DNA of 64,000 bases from an uncultured Coriobacteriaceae bacterium (lineage in GTDB: Bacteria > Actinomycetota > Coriobacteriia > Coriobacteriales > Atopobiaceae). Below the pieces are notes generated by a model. That model had not been told where the DNA came from and ran no database searches. It saw nothing but the letters and a program-made list of their open reading frames with translations. Positions 8,708 through 17,362 of the stretch are shown piece after piece. Where the stretch lies: positions 1-64,000 of the forward strand of contig CADALE010000007.1 of the NCBI GenBank assembly GCA_902788705.1, read 5' to 3'. The translations under genes and the position numbers were made by a program. Position 1 is the stretch's first letter. Each line of letters opens with the position of its first letter.

Positions 8708-9142
8708 ATGGGGCTCCTCTCGTTTCTTCGCGAGATGATTGACGGCGGCGGCACCGACGAGGACAAGCGCATGCACGCCGAGCTGGACCAGGTGCGCGCC
8801 ATGGCCGAGGCCGCCGAGAGGGGAGAGGCCATGCCTGACGGCGCCACCCTGGGCCCCAAGATGAGGCGCCGCTACCACTTCGTGGGCATGGTGCAGGGCG
8901 TGGGCTTCCGCTTTACGGCCACCAACCTGGCCAGCTCGGTGGGCGCCACGGGCTGGGTTTCAAACGAGCGCGACGGCTCTGTCATCGCCGAGGTGCAGGG
9001 CATATCCGAGCAGATTGACGCGGTGATTGACGGGCTGGACCGCTACTATAACGGTCGCCGCTTCATGGGAGGCTTCACCATCGAGAGCGTGAGCACCGTG
9101 CCGGTGGTGGAGGATGAGCACGACTTTCATCCCAAGTACTGA
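8708..9142 (+). CDS. Acylphosphatase with N-terminal extension
   Basis: 144 residues; a typical acylphosphatase is about 90. The catalytic domain occupies residues 54-144 with VQGVGFRF (phosphate-binding Arg68) and GWVSNERDG (catalytic Asn86). The first ~50 residues are a charged helix (LLSFLREMID, then DEDKRMHAELDQVRAMAEAAERG), not part of the domain, and may mediate assembly or membrane contact. GGAAGGCGGG precedes the ATG. It is 31 bases from cls and probably co-transcribed. The family hydrolyses acyl phosphates such as carbamoyl or acetyl phosphate. Confidence 0.88.
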   Translation: MGLLSFLREMIDGGGTDEDKRMHAELDQVRAMAEAAERGEAMPDGATLGPKMRRRYHFVGMVQGVGFRFTATNLASSVGATGWVSNERDGSVIAEVQGISEQIDAVIDGLDRYYNGRRFMGGFTIESVSTVPVVEDEHDFHPKY

Positions 9143-9173
9143 GATGTCCCAACACGTCCAAAGGAGCGGAGCG

Positions 9174-10730
9174 ATGGAGGAGAAGACCCTAGAGCAGAGC
9201 GCCGACGTCAAGAACGGCGTGAAGCGCATGGTGTTTGCGGGCATTGCCATCCTGCTGGAGCTCGCGTTGGTTCTGCTGATCATCCTGCGGTTCAACGAGA
9301 GCGCGGAGTGGGTGGCCATCGGCACGCGCATCATGGGCACCCTGCTGGTGCTGCTCATCTACAACTCCAACCAGACCTCGGCGATGAAGATGCCCTGGAT
9401 CATCCTGATTATGCTGGCGCCCGTGCTGGGCGTGGCGCTGTACCTGATGATGGGCCTGAACGGCAGCACGTGGAAGATGCGGCTGCGCTATGAGGCGGTG
9501 GACAAGGCGCTGTTCCGCCACCTGGGCGACGGCGAGGAGGCGCTCGCGCGGCTTGACGCGGTAGACCGTCGCGCGGCCAACATCGCGCGCTACGTGCGCC
9601 ATGGCTCGGGCTATCCCTTGTATGACGACACCGCCATCACCTACTACGATGACGCGTCGACCGGCCTCGAGGCCCAGAAGGAGGCCCTGCGCAAGGCCGA
9701 GAAGTTCATCTTCATGGAGTATCACGCCATCGAGGACGCCGAGAGCTGGCACGGCATCCAGAAGATCCTGGAGGAGCGCGTGGCCGCGGGCGTGCGGGTG
9801 CGCGTGTTCTACGACGACATGGGTTCTATCGGCTTCATCAACACCGACTTCGTGAAGCGCCTCGAGGCGAAGGGCATCCAGGCGCGCGTGTTCAACCCCA
9901 TGGCCCCGGGCCTGAACCTCTTCCTGAACAACCGCGACCACCGCAAGATCACGGTCGTCGACGGCAAGGTGGGCTTCACGGGTGGCTACAACCTGGCCAA
10001 CGAGTACTTCAACGTGACGCACCCCTTTGGCCGCTGGAAGGACACGGGCGTGCGCCTGGAGGGTCCGGCGGTGCGCAGCCTGACGGTGGCCTTCCTTGAG
10101 ATGTGGAACGCCGTGAGCGACAAGGACGTGGATGACCACAACTTTGACCGCTGGTTGCCCAAGGTGTCGCCCGTACCGGACACGACGGGCTTCGTGATGC
10201 CCTATGCCGACACGCCCATGGACCAGGAGCAGGTGGGCGAGGACGTGTACATCTCGGTGGCCGAGTACGCCAAGGAGTACGCCTGGTACATCACGCCCTA
10301 CCTCATCCTTACCGACGAGATGGTGCACGCCTTGGGCCTTGCCGCCAAGCGCGGGGTGGACGTGCGCATCATCACGCCGGGCATCCCCGACAAGAAGCTG
10401 GTGTACTCCATCACGCGCTCGTACTACCACAGCCTGGTGCGCAACGGCGTGCGCATCTTTGAGTACACGCCCGGCTTCTGCCACTGCAAGATGTGCGTAA
10501 GCGACGACATGGTGGCCACCTGTGGCACCATCAACCTTGACTACCGCAGCCTGTACCACCACTTTGAGAACGGCTGCCTGTACTGCGCGTGCAAGGCCGT
10601 GATGGATACCAAGGCCGACTTCGAGGCCACGATGGCGGAGTGCCGCGAGGTGACGTCCGACTACGCCAACCCAGGTGCGGGCATGCGCCTCGCGCAGCTG
10701 GTGCTGCGTCTGTTTGCGCCGTTGCTGTAG
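9174..10730 (+). CDS. cls: Cardiolipin synthase (phospholipase D family)
   Basis: 518 residues. Two to three N-terminal membrane segments (about residues 17-37, 43-60 and 66-85) are followed by two phospholipase D HxKxxxxD motifs: HRKITVVD in the first half and HCKMCVSD in the second, each followed by the usual Gly/Ser/Asn pattern. This is the bacterial cardiolipin synthase architecture: transfer of a phosphatidyl group between phosphatidylglycerols at the membrane. The start at 9174 has AAGGAG 7 bases upstream; an in-frame ATG at 9114 inside the acylphosphatase gene is less likely. Confidence 0.93.
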   Translation: MEEKTLEQSADVKNGVKRMVFAGIAILLELALVLLIILRFNESAEWVAIGTRIMGTLLVLLIYNSNQTSAMKMPWIILIMLAPVLGVALYLMMGLNGSTWKMRLRYEAVDKALFRHLGDGEEALARLDAVDRRAANIARYVRHGSGYPLYDDTAITYYDDASTGLEAQKEALRKAEKFIFMEYHAIEDAESWHGIQKILEERVAAGVRVRVFYDDMGSIGFINTDFVKRLEAKGIQARVFNPMAPGLNLFLNNRDHRKITVVDGKVGFTGGYNLANEYFNVTHPFGRWKDTGVRLEGPAVRSLTVAFLEMWNAVSDKDVDDHNFDRWLPKVSPVPDTTGFVMPYADTPMDQEQVGEDVYISVAEYAKEYAWYITPYLILTDEMVHALGLAAKRGVDVRIITPGIPDKKLVYSITRSYYHSLVRNGVRIFEYTPGFCHCKMCVSDDMVATCGTINLDYRSLYHHFENGCLYCACKAVMDTKADFEATMAECREVTSDYANPGAGMRLAQLVLRLFAPLL

Positions 10731-10951: not shown

Positions 10952-12625
10952 ATGGCTGAGTACAAGAGCGACATCGAGATCGCGCAGGAAGCTACCATGC
11001 TACCCATCAGCGAGGTGGCCGCAAAGGCCGGCCTCTCCGAGGACCAGCTCGAGCACTACGGCAGGTACAAGGCCAAGGTGGACATCCACTCCATGGCCGA
11101 CATGCCGTCGCGCGCCAAGCTCATCCTGGTCACCGCCATCAACCCCACGCCCGCGGGCGAGGGCAAGACCACCACGTCCGTCGGCCTGGCCGACGCCCTC
11201 AATCTCACCGGCCGCCAGACGATGCTCTGCCTGCGCGAGCCGTCGCTGGGCCCCGTGTTTGGCGTGAAGGGCGGCGCCGCGGGCGGCGGCTATGCCCAGG
11301 TGGTTCCCATGGAGGACATCAACCTGCACTTCACCGGCGACTTCCATGCCATCGGCGCGGCCAACAACCTGATTGCGGCCATGCTGGACAACCACATCAA
11401 GCAGGGCAACTCCCTGAACATCGACCCGCGCCGCATTACCTGGCGTCGCTGCGTTGACATGAACGACCGCCAGCTGCGCAACGTGGTTGACGGCATGGGC
11501 GGCATCGGCGATGGCGTGCCGCGCCAGGACGGCTTCGACATCACCGTGGCCTCCGAGGTCATGGCCGTGTTCTGCCTGGCCACCAGCCTGGAGGACCTGA
11601 AGGCCCGCCTTGGCCGCATGGTCATCGCCTACACCTACGATCGCAAGCCCGTCACCGTGTCGGACATCAAGGCCGAGGGCGCCTGCACGGCCCTGCTGAA
11701 GGACGCCATCAAGCCCAACCTGGTGCAGACCCTCGAGAACAACCCCGCGTTCGTGCATGGCGGCCCCTTCGCCAACATCGCGCACGGCTGCAACTCGGTG
11801 ATGGCCACCACCACCGCCATGAAGATGGCCGACTACGTGGTGACCGAGGCCGGCTTCGGCGCCGACCTTGGTGCCGAGAAGTTCTTGGACATCAAGTGCC
11901 GTGCCACGGGCCTCAAGCCCAGCGCCGTGGTGATCGTGGCCACCGTGCGCGCCCTCAAGCACAACGGTGGCGTGGCTAAGGCCGACCTGGGCAAGGAGAA
12001 CCTCGAGGCGCTCGAGGCCGGCATGCCTAACCTGCTGCAGCACGTCTCCAACATCAAGGATGTGTACGGCCTGCCCTGCGTGGTGGCCATCAACGCCTTC
12101 CCGACCGACACCAAGGCCGAGCTTGACCTCGTCGAGGCCAAGTGCAAGGAGCTGGGCGTGAACGTGGCGCTCTCCGAGGTGTGGGCCAAGGGCGGCGAGG
12201 GCGGCCGCGCGCTTGCCGACGAGGTGGTGCGCCTGTGCGACGAACCTAGCGACTTCCGCTTCTCCTACGAGCTTGACCAGGACATCTATGGCAAGCTGCA
12301 CGACATCGGCCACAAGATTTACCACGCCGAGCATGTCCTGCTGCTTCCCGCCGCAGCCAAGAAGGCCAAGGAGCTGGAGAGCCTGGGCTTTGGTAACCTG
12401 CCCATCTGCGTGGCTAAGACGCAGTACAGCTTCTCTGACGACCCCACGCTGCTGGGCGCCCCGAAGGGCTTCACGCTCAACGTGCGCGACCTCAAGGTGT
12501 CTGCCGGCGCGGGCTTCATAGTGGCGTACACCGGCGACATCATGACGATGCCCGGCCTGCCCAAGGTGCCCGCCGCCGAGAAGATCGACGTCATGCCTGA
12601 CGGCAAGATCGTGGGCCTGTTCTAA
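10952..12625 (+). CDS. fhs: Formate--tetrahydrofolate ligase
   Basis: 557 residues, the normal length for this family. The nucleotide-binding segment [12 protein letters not shown] lies at residues 64-75, and the family blocks [23 protein letters not shown] and [19 protein letters not shown] are intact. The enzyme interconverts formate, THF and ATP with 10-formyl-THF, ADP and phosphate. Run in reverse it makes ATP and formate. AAGGAG precedes the ATG by 6 bases. It heads a folate block (fchA, folD, folE, channel, folC), though a 230-base gap with hairpins separates it from fchA. Confidence 0.97.
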
Positions 12626-12858: not shown

Positions 12859-13485
12859 ATGGGTGAGAGGCTTACGGAGAGGAGCTGCGCCTCATTTGCG
12901 GAGGTGCTGGCTGCCAAGGAGTCGGTGCCGGGCGGTGGCGGGGCTGCCGCGCTGGTGGGCGCCCTGGGTGTCGCGCTGGGCTCGATGGTGGGCAACTTCA
13001 CCACGGGCAAGAAGCGCTACGCCGACGTCGAGGACGACATCCGCCGCATGCTGGCCGATGGAGAGGCCATCCGCCTGACCCTGCTCGAGCTGGTGGAGGA
13101 GGACGCGGCGGCGTTCTATCCGCTCTCGCAGGCCTACGGCATCCCCAAGGAGGACCCAACGCGCGCCCAGGTGCTGGAGGACGCCACCAAGAACGCGTGC
13201 GCCGCCCCAGTAGAGATGATGCGCCAGATCGCCAAGGCCATCGAGCTGCTGGAGGAGATGGGCGAGAAGGGCTCGCGGATGCTGCTGTCCGATGTGGGCT
13301 GCGGCGCCCTGTTGTGCCGTGCGGCCCTCGAGGCGGCCAGTCTGAACGTGTTCGTGAACACCAAGACGCTGGCTGACCGCGCCTTTGCCGAGTCCGTCGA
13401 GGCCGAGTGCGACGCGCTGCTGGCCGAGTACGGCCCGCGCGCCGAGGCTTGCGCCGCCAAGGTGATGGCGCACATCCGCAAGTAA
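12859..13485 (+). CDS. fchA: Methenyltetrahydrofolate cyclohydrolase (FchA/cyclodeaminase family)
   Basis: 208 residues, matching the cyclodeaminase/cyclohydrolase family (about 200-210). PGGGGAAALVGALGVAL near the N-terminus and the helical SDVGCGALLCRAALEAASLNVFVN block near residues 155-180 are typical. The enzyme opens 5,10-methenyl-THF to 10-formyl-THF in anaerobes that use a separate cyclohydrolase. The start at 12859 has GGAGGG just upstream. It lies 33 bases before folD, whose own cyclohydrolase residues are replaced, so the pair likely divides the two steps. Confidence 0.92.
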   Translation: MGERLTERSCASFAEVLAAKESVPGGGGAAALVGALGVALGSMVGNFTTGKKRYADVEDDIRRMLADGEAIRLTLLELVEEDAAAFYPLSQAYGIPKEDPTRAQVLEDATKNACAAPVEMMRQIAKAIELLEEMGEKGSRMLLSDVGCGALLCRAALEAASLNVFVNTKTLADRAFAESVEAECDALLAEYGPRAEACAAKVMAHIRK

Positions 13486-13518
13486 GCCCAACGTCACCCC
13501 TGGGTGGAAGGAGACATG

Positions 13519-14373
13519 ATGGCAGAGCTGCTGCTGGGGCTTCCCGTGGCGAACGCCCTCACCGAGATGCTGGCCGACAAGGTGGCCCGGCTGGTGGAGC
13601 GCGACATCGTTCCCACGCTCGCGATCGTGCGGGTGGGGGAGCGCGACGACGACCTCTCCTACGAGCGCGGCGCGCTGAAGCGCTGCGAGAAGGTGGGCAT
13701 CGAGGTGCGCCAGTTCGTGCTGCCGGCCGACTGCACGCAGGACGAGCTCATGGCTGTGATTGCCGAGGTGAACGCCGACCCCTCCATCCATGGTTGCCTC
13801 ATGTTCCGCCCGCTGCCAAAGACGCTGGACGAGGCCGCGGCGTGCGCCGCCCTCGACCCCGCGAAGGATGTTGACTGCATCACCGAGGGGTCGCTGTACG
13901 GCGTCTTCGCCAACCGGCCCGTCGGCTTTGCGCCGTGCACGGCCGAGGCATGCATCGAGGTGCTGGACCACTACGGCTACGACCTCACCGGCGCGCGCGT
14001 CACCGTGGTGGGGCGCAGCCTCGTCATTGGCAAGCCGGTCTCGATGATGCTGCAGGCGCGCAACGCCACCGTGAAGATGTGCCACACACGCACGCGCGAC
14101 CTTGCCGCCGAGTGCCGCGACGCCGAGATCGTGGTGGTGGCGGCGGGGCACATCGGCACGCTGGGCAAGGACGCCGTGGCGCCTGGCCAGGTGGTCATCG
14201 ACGTGGGCATCAACTGGGACGAGGCTGCGGGCAAGCTGTGCGGCGACGTCCTGTTCGACGAGGTGGAGCCCATCGTGGGCGCCATCACGCCCGTTCCGCG
14301 CGGCGTGGGCTCGGTCACCACGGCGGTGCTGGCCAAGCACGTGGTGGAGGCTGCCAAGCGCCAGAACGCGTAG
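13519..14373 (+). CDS. folD: Methylenetetrahydrofolate dehydrogenase (FolD family, cyclohydrolase site altered)
   Basis: 284 residues with both FolD domains; the Rossmann motif [14 protein letters not shown] is at 165-178. In canonical bifunctional FolD the cyclohydrolase lysine follows the active-site Tyr by four residues and a Gln stands in VQLPLP. Here Tyr48 is kept, but Tyr+4 is Ala52 and the Gln position is Phe96 in MFRPLP; the downstream DPAKDVD aspartates remain. PCTP is PCTA and PGGVGPMT is PRGVGSVT. I infer a dehydrogenase that has lost or weakened cyclohydrolase activity, complemented by fchA 33 bases upstream. The start at 13519 is five bases after AAGGAG; ATG 13516 is too close. 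Confidence 0.93.
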
Positions 14374-14438: not shown

Positions 14439-15026
14439 ATGTCTGAGGAACTGACCTATCGTCCGCTCGACAAGCCGCGCGTTGAGGCGGCGGTGCGCGA
14501 GCTGTTGGTCGCCATCGGCGAGGACCCCGACCGCGAGGGCCTGCTGGGCACGCCCGACCGCGTGGCCCGTGCCTGCGAGGAGATCTTCGGCGGCATGCAG
14601 GAGGACCCGTCGCTCCACCTGCTGAAGCAGTTCCACGAGCCCGGCAACGAGAACATGGTCATCGTGAGGGACATCCCCTTCAACTCGATGTGCGAGCATC
14701 ACCTGCTGCCGTTCACGGGCAAGGCGCACGTATGCTACCTGCCGCGCGACGGGCGCATCACCGGCCTCTCCAAGCTGGCCCGCTGCGTGACCGGCTACGC
14801 GCATCGCCCCCAGCTGCAGGAGCGCCTCACCGAGCAGATCGCCGACGCGCTTGAGCTGCGGCTCGAGCCGCGCGGCGTGCTGGTGGTGCTTGAGGCCGAG
14901 CACTCGTGCATGAGCATGCGCGGCATCCGCAGCGTGGGGTCGTCCACGGTCACCTCGGCCGTGCGGGGGTGGTTCAAGGAAGACCTGAAGGCTCGCGAGG
15001 AGGCGCTCAAGCTCCTCGGGCTGTGA
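14439..15026 (+). CDS. folE: GTP cyclohydrolase I
   Basis: 195 residues. The zinc and active-site residues are all visible: Cys85 and the following His pair in MCEHHLLPF, and Cys157 in [33 protein letters not shown] is the usual core helix. It converts GTP to 7,8-dihydroneopterin triphosphate, the first step of folate synthesis. AGGGAGGAGAGG precedes the ATG. It lies 65 bases after folD in the same orientation and is probably co-transcribed. Confidence 0.96.
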
Positions 15027-15091
15027 TGTGCGATACTGTCTGCGCCCGGCCTTGCGTGAGGTCGGGCGCTTTGTCGTAGAAGGGAGAGACC

Positions 15092-15928
15092 ATGGCGGCA
15101 CCAAGCTATCCGACCGTCGACGCGCTTGCCCCGGCGCAGACCTATGCCAAGGCCGTGGCCGTGGGAAAGGCCAAGGCTACCATGCCTGCGTACCGGGCCT
15201 TCGTGCTGGCCGTGGCGGCCGGGTTCTACATCGGGCTGGGCGGCATGCTCATGCTGCTGGTCAAGTCCGACACCACGCTGGGGTTTGCGGCCTCGTCGCT
15301 TCTGGGCGGGTTCGTGTTCAGCCTGGGCCTCTTCGCGGTGCTGGTGGCGGGCGCCGAGCTGTTCACGGGCAACAGCCTCATGGCCATCGGCCGCTTCGAG
15401 GGCGCCTACAGCCTGGCCCAGCTCCTGCGCAGCTGGGCCGTGGTGTATGCCGGCAACCTCTGCGGGTCGCTTTTGCTGGTGGCGCTGCTTCGCCTGGCCC
15501 GCTTCGCCGACCTGAACGGCGGCGCCGTGGGCACCACCATCCTTTCGGTGGCGACAGCCAAGTGCGCGCTGCCCTGGGTCACGGCGGCCTTCCGCGGGGT
15601 CATGTGCAATGTGCTGGTGTGCCTTGCCGTGTGGATGGGCTTTGCCGGCAAGACGGTGGTGGACAAGTTCCTCGCCGCCGCGATGCCGGTCATGGCGTTC
15701 GTGGCCTGCGGCTTCGAGCACTGTGTGGCCAACATGTTCTTCATCCCCATGGGGCTGGTCACGCTGGGCATGACCGGGGCGCCGGCCGGCGCGGACGTCT
15801 CGGCGCTTACCGTAGGCGGGATGCTCTCCAACCTCTCGGCAGCCACGCTGGGCAACGTGCTGGGTGGCGTGTGCTTCCTGGCCGCCCTCTACATCTTTGC
15901 CTTCGGAACCAACGTCGAGAAGAAGTGA
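15092..15928 (+). CDS. Formate/nitrite transporter (FNT) family channel
   Basis: 278 residues with six hydrophobic segments typical of FNT pentameric channels, including AELFTGNSLM in the first repeat and FEHCVANMFFIPMG in the second, both family signatures. GGGAGAG precedes the ATG. Its place inside a folate block headed by formate--THF ligase argues for formate rather than nitrite or hydrosulfide as cargo; this is context, not sequence proof. It sits 65 bases after folE and 3 bases before folC, so it is probably in one operon with them. Confidence 0.9.
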   Translation: MAAPSYPTVDALAPAQTYAKAVAVGKAKATMPAYRAFVLAVAAGFYIGLGGMLMLLVKSDTTLGFAASSLLGGFVFSLGLFAVLVAGAELFTGNSLMAIGRFEGAYSLAQLLRSWAVVYAGNLCGSLLLVALLRLARFADLNGGAVGTTILSVATAKCALPWVTAAFRGVMCNVLVCLAVWMGFAGKTVVDKFLAAAMPVMAFVACGFEHCVANMFFIPMGLVTLGMTGAPAGADVSALTVGGMLSNLSAATLGNVLGGVCFLAALYIFAFGTNVEKK

Positions 15929-15931
15929 CGC

Positions 15932-17362
15932 ATGATGAGTGACTATCGCATTCCCTTCGAGGTGCCGGACTGGACCTACGAGCAGGCCCTCCATCGCCTG
16001 CACGAGGTGCTGCGCTTTGGCATCGTCCCCATGCTCGAGACCGTCGAGGACATGCTTGTCGAGCTGGGCAGCCCCGACTCGTGCTTTGACTCCATTCAGG
16101 TGGCGGGCACCAACGGCAAGACGTCCACCTCGCGCTACACCGCGGCCATCTTGCGCGCCGAGGGGTACCGCACGGCGCTGTACACCAGCCCCGAGCTGGT
16201 GAGCTACACCGAGCGCATGGAGGTTGACGGCGCCCCGGTGAGCGAGACGGCCTTCGCACGCGGCATCGCGGCTGCGTCGCTGGCGGGCGAGCGCGTGAAC
16301 GACCACCGCCGGTCAGTGGGGGAGCGCCCCTACGACATCACCGAGTTTGACCTGCTGACCGTTGCCGCCTGCGTGGTATATGCCGAGGCGGGCGTTGACG
16401 TGGCGGTGCTCGAGGTGGGCATGGGAGGCCGCTGGGACGCCACTAGCGCGGTCACTTCCATCAGGACGGTCGCCGTCACGGGCATCGGGCTTGACCACAT
16501 GCACATCCTGGGCGACACCCTCGAGGCCATCGCTGCCGAGAAGGCGGCGGTCATCAAGGCCGGACGACCCTGCGTGCTGGGTGTGGGAACCGCCACGCCC
16601 GACAGCGTGGAGGATGTGTTCCTCTCGCGCTGCGAGGTGGAGGGTGTGCGCCCCGTGCTGCTGCGTCCCGAGCGGCTGAGCGACGCGCAAGGCGAGATGC
16701 ATCCCGGCGTGCCGCGCGAGCATCCTGGCACCCCGCATGCCAGCTACGTGATCACCAAGCGGCCCTCCAAGCTGGGCCTTCCCCTCCAGCTGAGCGTCAC
16801 CACCCCGCGCGCCACCTATGCGGGCCTCGTCACGCCCAAGCCCGCCTACCAAGCAGCCAACGTGGCTTGCGCCGTGGCCCTTGCCGAGGCGCACCTTGGG
16901 CGCGAGCTTGACCATGAGCTGCTGCATGAGGCTGTGGCCACCTGTCCCACGCCGGGGCGCTTCGACCAGCTGCGGTCAGACCCGCCCGTCATCATCGACG
17001 CGTGCCACAACCCGCAGTCGGTGGAGACGTTCCTCACGGCGGTGCGCGACATCCAGCCCGACGCGTCCGGAAGGCCCGCGCTGCTGTGCGCCGCGCTGGC
17101 CGACAAGGACTGCGCGGGCATGGTTGGGCTGCTGGCGCACGAGTTTCCCTGCGTGTACGTCACCCAGACGTCGTCGCCCCGCGCGCTGGCCGCCGAGCAG
17201 CTTGCGCAGCTGTTTGCCGAGGCAGGGGCCGAGGTGCGCGGCGTGTACCCCACGGTGGGGGAGGCCGTCTTGGCACTGGAGGGCGTCTCCTACGTGGCGT
17301 GTGGGTCCATCACGCTGGCGGGAGAGGTGGCCGGCATACTGCGGCCTCCGGTGCGCTCGTAG
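15932..17362 (+). CDS. folC: Folylpolyglutamate / dihydrofolate synthase
   Basis: 476 residues of the Mur-ligase-like FolC family. The P-loop VAGTNGKTST is at residues 57-66, YTSPELVSYTERMEVDG follows as in FolC, and EVGMGGRWDATS and the C-terminal DACHNPQS motif are present. It adds glutamates to folates and may also make dihydrofolate from dihydropteroate. Two ATGs (15932, 15935) are possible. The start lies almost on the stop of the channel gene, which suggests translational coupling. Confidence 0.95.
   Translation: MMSDYRIPFEVPDWTYEQALHRLHEVLRFGIVPMLETVEDMLVELGSPDSCFDSIQVAGTNGKTSTSRYTAAILRAEGYRTALYTSPELVSYTERMEVDGAPVSETAFARGIAAASLAGERVNDHRRSVGERPYDITEFDLLTVAACVVYAEAGVDVAVLEVGMGGRWDATSAVTSIRTVAVTGIGLDHMHILGDTLEAIAAEKAAVIKAGRPCVLGVGTATPDSVEDVFLSRCEVEGVRPVLLRPERLSDAQGEMHPGVPREHPGTPHASYVITKRPSKLGLPLQLSVTTPRATYAGLVTPKPAYQAANVACAVALAEAHLGRELDHELLHEAVATCPTPGRFDQLRSDPPVIIDACHNPQSVETFLTAVRDIQPDASGRPALLCAALADKDCAGMVGLLAHEFPCVYVTQTSSPRALAAEQLAQLFAEAGAEVRGVYPTVGEAVLALEGVSYVACGSITLAGEVAGILRPPVRS

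Follow-up and report, generated by a model that had tools for sequence, protein, structure and literature searches.

A FolD lacking the catalytic lysine and glutamine, encoded beside fchA and fhs in an uncultured Coriobacteriaceae bacterium, is a predicted dehydrogenase-only enzyme

The FolD protein of Clostridium perfringens, although annotated as bifunctional, is said to have been shown by Aluri et al. in 2016 to act as a dehydrogenase only, with FchA serving as the cyclohydrolase, and FolD and FchA of this organism were reportedly both required to replace E. coli FolD. Both folD and fchA are present in most acetogens (PMC10103890), and the fhs-fchA-folD methyl-branch module of C. autoethanogenum occupies consecutive locus tags (PMC9618320). 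The methylene-tetrahydrofolate (THF) dehydrogenase of Peptostreptococcus productus is described as monofunctional in a passage of one report (PMC6443876). For the bifunctional enzyme of E. coli, the K54N variant has ~19% dehydrogenase activity and no detectable cyclohydrolase activity, while Q98H has ~8% and ~1%, respectively, and the authors of that work proposed Lys54 to be indispensable to the cyclohydrolase reaction (PMC5688156). The human counterparts of the active-site residues are Lys56, Gln100, Tyr52 and Asp125 (PMC6443876), and a computational study of MTHFD2 did not settle what exactly the Lys does (PMC9173628).

We analyzed a window of 64,000 nucleotides, the whole of the stretch studied here, from an uncultured Coriobacteriaceae bacterium (assembly GCA_902788705.1, contig CADALE010000007.1), in which fhs, fchA, folD and folE follow one another on the + strand (Table 1). 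A preliminary description of this DNA had placed the fchA start 660 bases upstream of folD with 33 bases between the two genes, and had read Ala52 in place of the Lys four residues after the active-site Tyr of FolD, Phe96 in place of the Gln of VQLPLP, and an intact dinucleotide site; the coordinates and codons in Table 1 agree with each of these readings. The folD start codon was taken as the ATG at 13519, with an alternative ATG at 13516.

Table 1. Features of the fhs-fchA-folD-folE region, in window coordinates
Feature	Position	Strand	Evidence
fhs, formate-THF ligase (formate to 10-formyl-THF)	10952..12625	+	PF01268 3e-269; NF010030 above cut-off
fchA, methenyl-THF cyclohydrolase, FTCD_C family	12859..13485	+	PF04961 4.7e-60; NF045657 FchA 7.3e-51, under cut-off
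folD, predicted monofunctional methylene-THF dehydrogenase	13519..14373	+	PF00763 5e-32; PF02882 6e-53
FolD Tyr48 (E. coli Tyr50), retained	13660..13662	+	>97% conserved in both FolD types
FolD Ala52 (gcg), replacing catalytic Lys (E. coli Lys54, human Lys56)	13672..13674	+	
FolD Phe96 (ttc)-Arg97, replacing Gln-Leu/Met (E. coli Gln98)	13804..13809	+	
FolD Asp119 (E. coli Asp121), retained; followed by Cys120 replacing Gly	13873..13875	+	
FolD dinucleotide-binding motif GRSLVIGKP, intact	14011..14037	+	G, R, S, G and P positions common to both FolD types
folE, GTP cyclohydrolase I, downstream folate gene	14439..15026	+	TIGR00063, PF01227
Terminator-like hairpin 3' of folE	15042..15069	+	12-bp stem, then T-rich tail; consensus match only

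The hairpin downstream of folE is a possible transcript end. Past it lies a formate/nitrite transporter homolog (15092-15928; best NCBIfam match FocA, under cut-off), and a Mur-ligase-type protein that extends the run of folate genes (15932-17362) is probably the folylpolyglutamate synthase FolC. On the other side of fhs, the first 29 bases of a cardiolipin-synthase-like PLD gene (9114-10730) overlap an acylphosphatase-domain gene (8708-9142). No Rfam match to a THF riboswitch upstream of fhs was found in the window.

The folD product has both Pfam domains and the fold of a bifunctional FolD, but lacks the Lys of YxxxK and the Gln of VQxPLP. It keeps the Tyr and the Asp, and both replacement residues are hydrophobic, which is the pattern of the subfamily that we hereafter refer to as K/Q-less. 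The AlphaFold model of the protein (pLDDT 97; TM 0.94 to C. jejuni FolD, 3p2o) superposes on bifunctional FolDs at TM ~0.94, indicating an intact fold that differs only in its active-site chemistry. Against the NCBIfam 'bifunctional FolD' models the protein scored at best 246.7 bits (cut-off 421), and none of the 25 matches listed for it passed the NCBIfam cut-off. As a PF00763 profile search of its own genome (assembly ~90% complete) returned exactly one match, we excluded a second, canonical FolD elsewhere in that assembly that could supply the missing activity.

We then related these residues to the presence of FchA across the host's class. A total of 197 genomes were searched with PF00763 and PF04961, and FolD residues were read in 160 of them from fetched loci. 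Lys and Gln were both replaced in the FolD of all 98 genomes with FchA and both retained in all 62 without it (Fisher's test 6e-46, a value that treats related genomes as separate and does not count independent events, so that the raw counts overstate independence). Both kinds occur within a single family (f3: 25/25 genomes with FchA K/Q-less, 15/15 genomes without FchA with Lys and Gln). One apparent exception, a K/Q-less FolD with no FchA at its locus (L047), was rejected, since the contig breaks there and the FchA of this genome lies on another contig (L046). With two positions changed in every genome with FchA and in none without it, the Ala52 and Phe96 substitutions are not attributable to chance. 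The survey of Coriobacteriia called for in the preliminary description thus yields the co-occurrence it had anticipated and none of the fchA-less relatives with the same substitutions that would have spoken against it. As loss of the two residues and presence of fchA always coincide in the 160 genomes, and as the published E. coli mutants agree, its view that the annotation 'bifunctional' is probably wrong is supported.

From these data, we consider it highly probable that this FolD is a dehydrogenase only, that FchA is the cyclohydrolase, and that together with Fhs they form a formate to methylene-THF module that was acquired and displaced an ancestral bifunctional FolD; the two enzyme activities are those we infer from the E. 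coli FolD mutants and from homologous systems. In this module, formate would be loaded onto folate, FchA would interconvert 10-formyl-THF and methenyl-THF, and FolD would interconvert methenyl-THF and methylene-THF with NAD(P)H. With a small hydrophobic residue in the place of Lys, and Phe, Leu or Met in that of Gln, the ring-opening chemistry would be lost while the substrate site (Tyr48, Asp119) and the cofactor site remain. Because methenyl-THF also hydrolyzes spontaneously, FchA need not be essential. MetF is present in the genome and a PF03598 search of it (assembly ~90% complete) gave no match to acetyl-CoA synthase, and the role of the module is therefore probably anabolic. On the same ground we rejected a full Wood-Ljungdahl pathway, and with it an acetogen, MetF notwithstanding.

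The window protein is a member of a diagnosable subfamily that spans Bacillota, Spirochaetes and Synergistales. Position 52 is Lys in 120/120 canonical representatives and Ala, Ile, Leu or Val in 141/141 K/Q-less ones, and further marks of the latter type are Arg38 (134/141), Asp45, Glu49, Arg97 (128/141), Val169 and Thr268. Arg97, which directly follows the lost Gln, may alter the shape of the pterin pocket. Replacement residues varied among the genomes of the class survey (Ala, Leu, Ile or Val for Lys; Phe, Leu or Met for Gln), as might be seen if the substitutions were drift in a gene partly redundant with FchA and signified nothing functional beyond relaxed constraint at the cyclohydrolase site. 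We regard such drift as unlikely, as the replacements are exclusively hydrophobic and come with the fixed co-changes at positions 38, 45, 49, 97, 169 and 268, and as conservation of the Tyr, the Asp and the cofactor motif across three families indicates that the dehydrogenase function of FolD is under selection.

Outside the class, an FchA-based scan of named genomes across phyla, which may omit near relatives of the window genome, gave 80 loci. K/Q-less genes or fragments made up 34 of the 35 FolD matches listed near fchA (of the two fragments from L233, a single one spans the motif), and they came from Lachnospiraceae, Oscillospiraceae, Flavonifractor, Sporobacter, Spirochaetes and Synergistales. 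The exception among the 35 is a proteobacterial MAG (L226) whose FolD near FchA retains the Lys but carries Glu at the Gln position (YKE). In a sample from the Clostridia-like class of an Oscillospiraceae MAG, the Lys was absent in 33/36 FolDs of genomes with FchA (in one of these, L359, a run of ambiguous bases covers the Lys position) and present in 53/54 FolDs of genomes without it. As to the three exceptions with FchA, one genome has an additional Lys-less FolD and another has its FchA beside an imidazolonepropionase-like amidohydrolase. A small 1.2 Mb MAG (G258) carries a K/Q-less FolD (L345) with no FchA detected in it, so that either the assembly is incomplete or the genome truly departs from the rule. 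In five FolDs, all from genomes with FchA, the Lys is lost and the Gln retained (L331, L336, L338, L268 and L262; YQQ, YLQ or YIQ); nested in the canonical clade, these are apparently independent Lys losses.

Genomes that combine a canonical FolD with an FTCD_C gene are mainly those in which the latter belongs to a histidine-degradation cluster. In the named genomes with this combination (L188, L209, L227, L206, L240 and L228), the FTCD_C gene adjoins urocanase, formiminotransferase, amidohydrolase or histidine-lyase-type genes, and FTCD_C genes in such clusters are expected to act as cyclodeaminases. The co-occurrence rule is therefore tied to FchA on the formyl-THF route. It is blurred by one genome (G279) whose sole FchA lies beside a histidine-degradation-type amidohydrolase.

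To place the two types relative to one another, we used a FastTree phylogeny of 269 FolDs, which was rooted at its midpoint and in which some deep nodes are weak. K/Q-less FolDs separate from the canonical type with support of 0.996 on the canonical side, the window FolD (L001) falls inside a K/Q-less clade of 135 tips whose node is weakly supported (0.234), and parsimony places five changes of the Lys state on the tree. Canonical FolDs of family f3 cluster with most canonical FolDs of the other orders of the class (support 0.999), which fits vertical descent, whereas K/Q-less FolDs of the class are interspersed with those of Bacillota and other phyla, apart from its canonical FolDs. Within one genus (g22), the genomes examined that lack FchA have a folD with Lys and Gln immediately after fhs, and most of those with FchA have no folD there and carry a fchA-folD pair elsewhere (~10 kb off in G076); in two (G161 and G185) the pair is near fhs. 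In this class, an imported fchA-folD pair thus appears to have taken the place of a bifunctional FolD acquired by vertical descent, in more than one event, a history that we infer through weak deep nodes and a midpoint root. Had Lys and Gln instead been lost in place after fchA arrived, a true fission with no displacement, the independent Lys losses within the canonical clade (the YQQ group) would offer a parallel elsewhere; we find this very unlikely given that the K/Q-less FolDs of the class group with Bacillota, Spirochaetes and Synergistales and its canonical FolDs stand apart, some weak deep nodes notwithstanding. The preliminary description had read the locus as a split of a normally bifunctional enzyme. 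Its functional side is supported by the class survey and the E. coli mutants, but its historical side is probably incorrect, as the tree and the g22 loci point to the arrival of an already specialized subfamily.

The window FchA matches the FchA of structure 7vg4 (3.7e-38), retains the invariant GKKxY and SD motifs of the active site, lies between fhs and folD, and is the only PF04961 match in its genome (assembly ~90% complete). The flanking genes examined include no histidine-degradation gene and give no indication of such a role for this FchA. In one genome (G102), a single 562-aa open frame (L096:1909-3594) encodes both domains of a K/Q-less FolD (YAM) followed by an FTCD_C domain, in addition to an unfused fchA-folD pair (L095); this fusion supports consecutive action of FolD and FchA. 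A further, very unlikely alternative is that FolD remains bifunctional by a changed mechanism, with Arg97 or Arg38 substituting for the Lys and FchA providing extra capacity or formimino-THF cyclodeamination, for although FchA falls in the cyclodeaminase family and these strongly conserved arginines or other subfamily-specific residues could in principle restore some cyclohydrolase activity, single Lys changes abolish the cyclohydrolase of E. coli FolD, the class survey contains no K/Q-less FolD without FchA, and the window fchA has the gene context just described.

A dehydrogenase-only FolD of this kind would also bear on inhibition. Carolacton receives two hydrogen bonds from Lys54 of E. coli FolD, and the dehydrogenase activity left in K54N does not respond to this compound at all (PMC5688156). 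As K/Q-less FolDs lack the carolacton-binding Lys, we predict that they are intrinsically insensitive to it, and absence of this residue would mark bacteria that are out of reach of carolacton-type FolD inhibitors.

On balance, we lean towards a wider reading, held with clearly less assurance than that of the locus itself: a widespread dehydrogenase-only FolD subfamily, diagnosable from sequence, travels with fchA, has replaced bifunctional FolD in gut bacteria on repeated occasions, and has once been re-fused to FchA as a new two-domain bifunctional enzyme, with its carriers insensitive to carolacton. If this is true, species of genus g22 should differ in carolacton sensitivity. Natural switches of type inside one genus allow a matched comparison between bifunctional and split enzymes. 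As two residues and one neighboring gene discriminate the types, sequence data could serve to correct the annotation of many gut-bacterial genes labeled 'bifunctional FolD', and metabolic models that assign one bifunctional enzyme to K/Q-less genomes overlook the required step of fchA. In the literature consulted, neither the residue rule nor the switch inside one family nor the carolacton prediction was described, although an earlier mention may exist elsewhere.

Among described systems, yeast MTD1 (1edz) is a monofunctional dehydrogenase that shares a superfamily with the window FolD (profile match 5e-21) but is distant from it. The P. productus dehydrogenase is bacterial and monofunctional like the predicted window enzyme; it was characterized biochemically and is likened here by description only. 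The acetogen module of C. autoethanogenum has the same gene content and order as the fhs-fchA-folD run of the window, but the window genome has no acetyl-CoA synthase match and its module is likely anabolic. C. perfringens likewise has separate FolD and FchA with Fhs, in another phylum than the window genome. As the division of labor between FolD and FchA is thus already present in acetogens and clostridia, it is not in itself new. Compared with the canonical bifunctional FolDs (E. coli 1b0a, human 1a4i and C. jejuni 3p2o), the window FolD has the Tyr, the Asp and the cofactor motif in common and its model superposes at TM 0.93-0.94 on 1a4i and 3p2o, but it lacks the catalytic Lys and Gln and belongs to a distinct clade.
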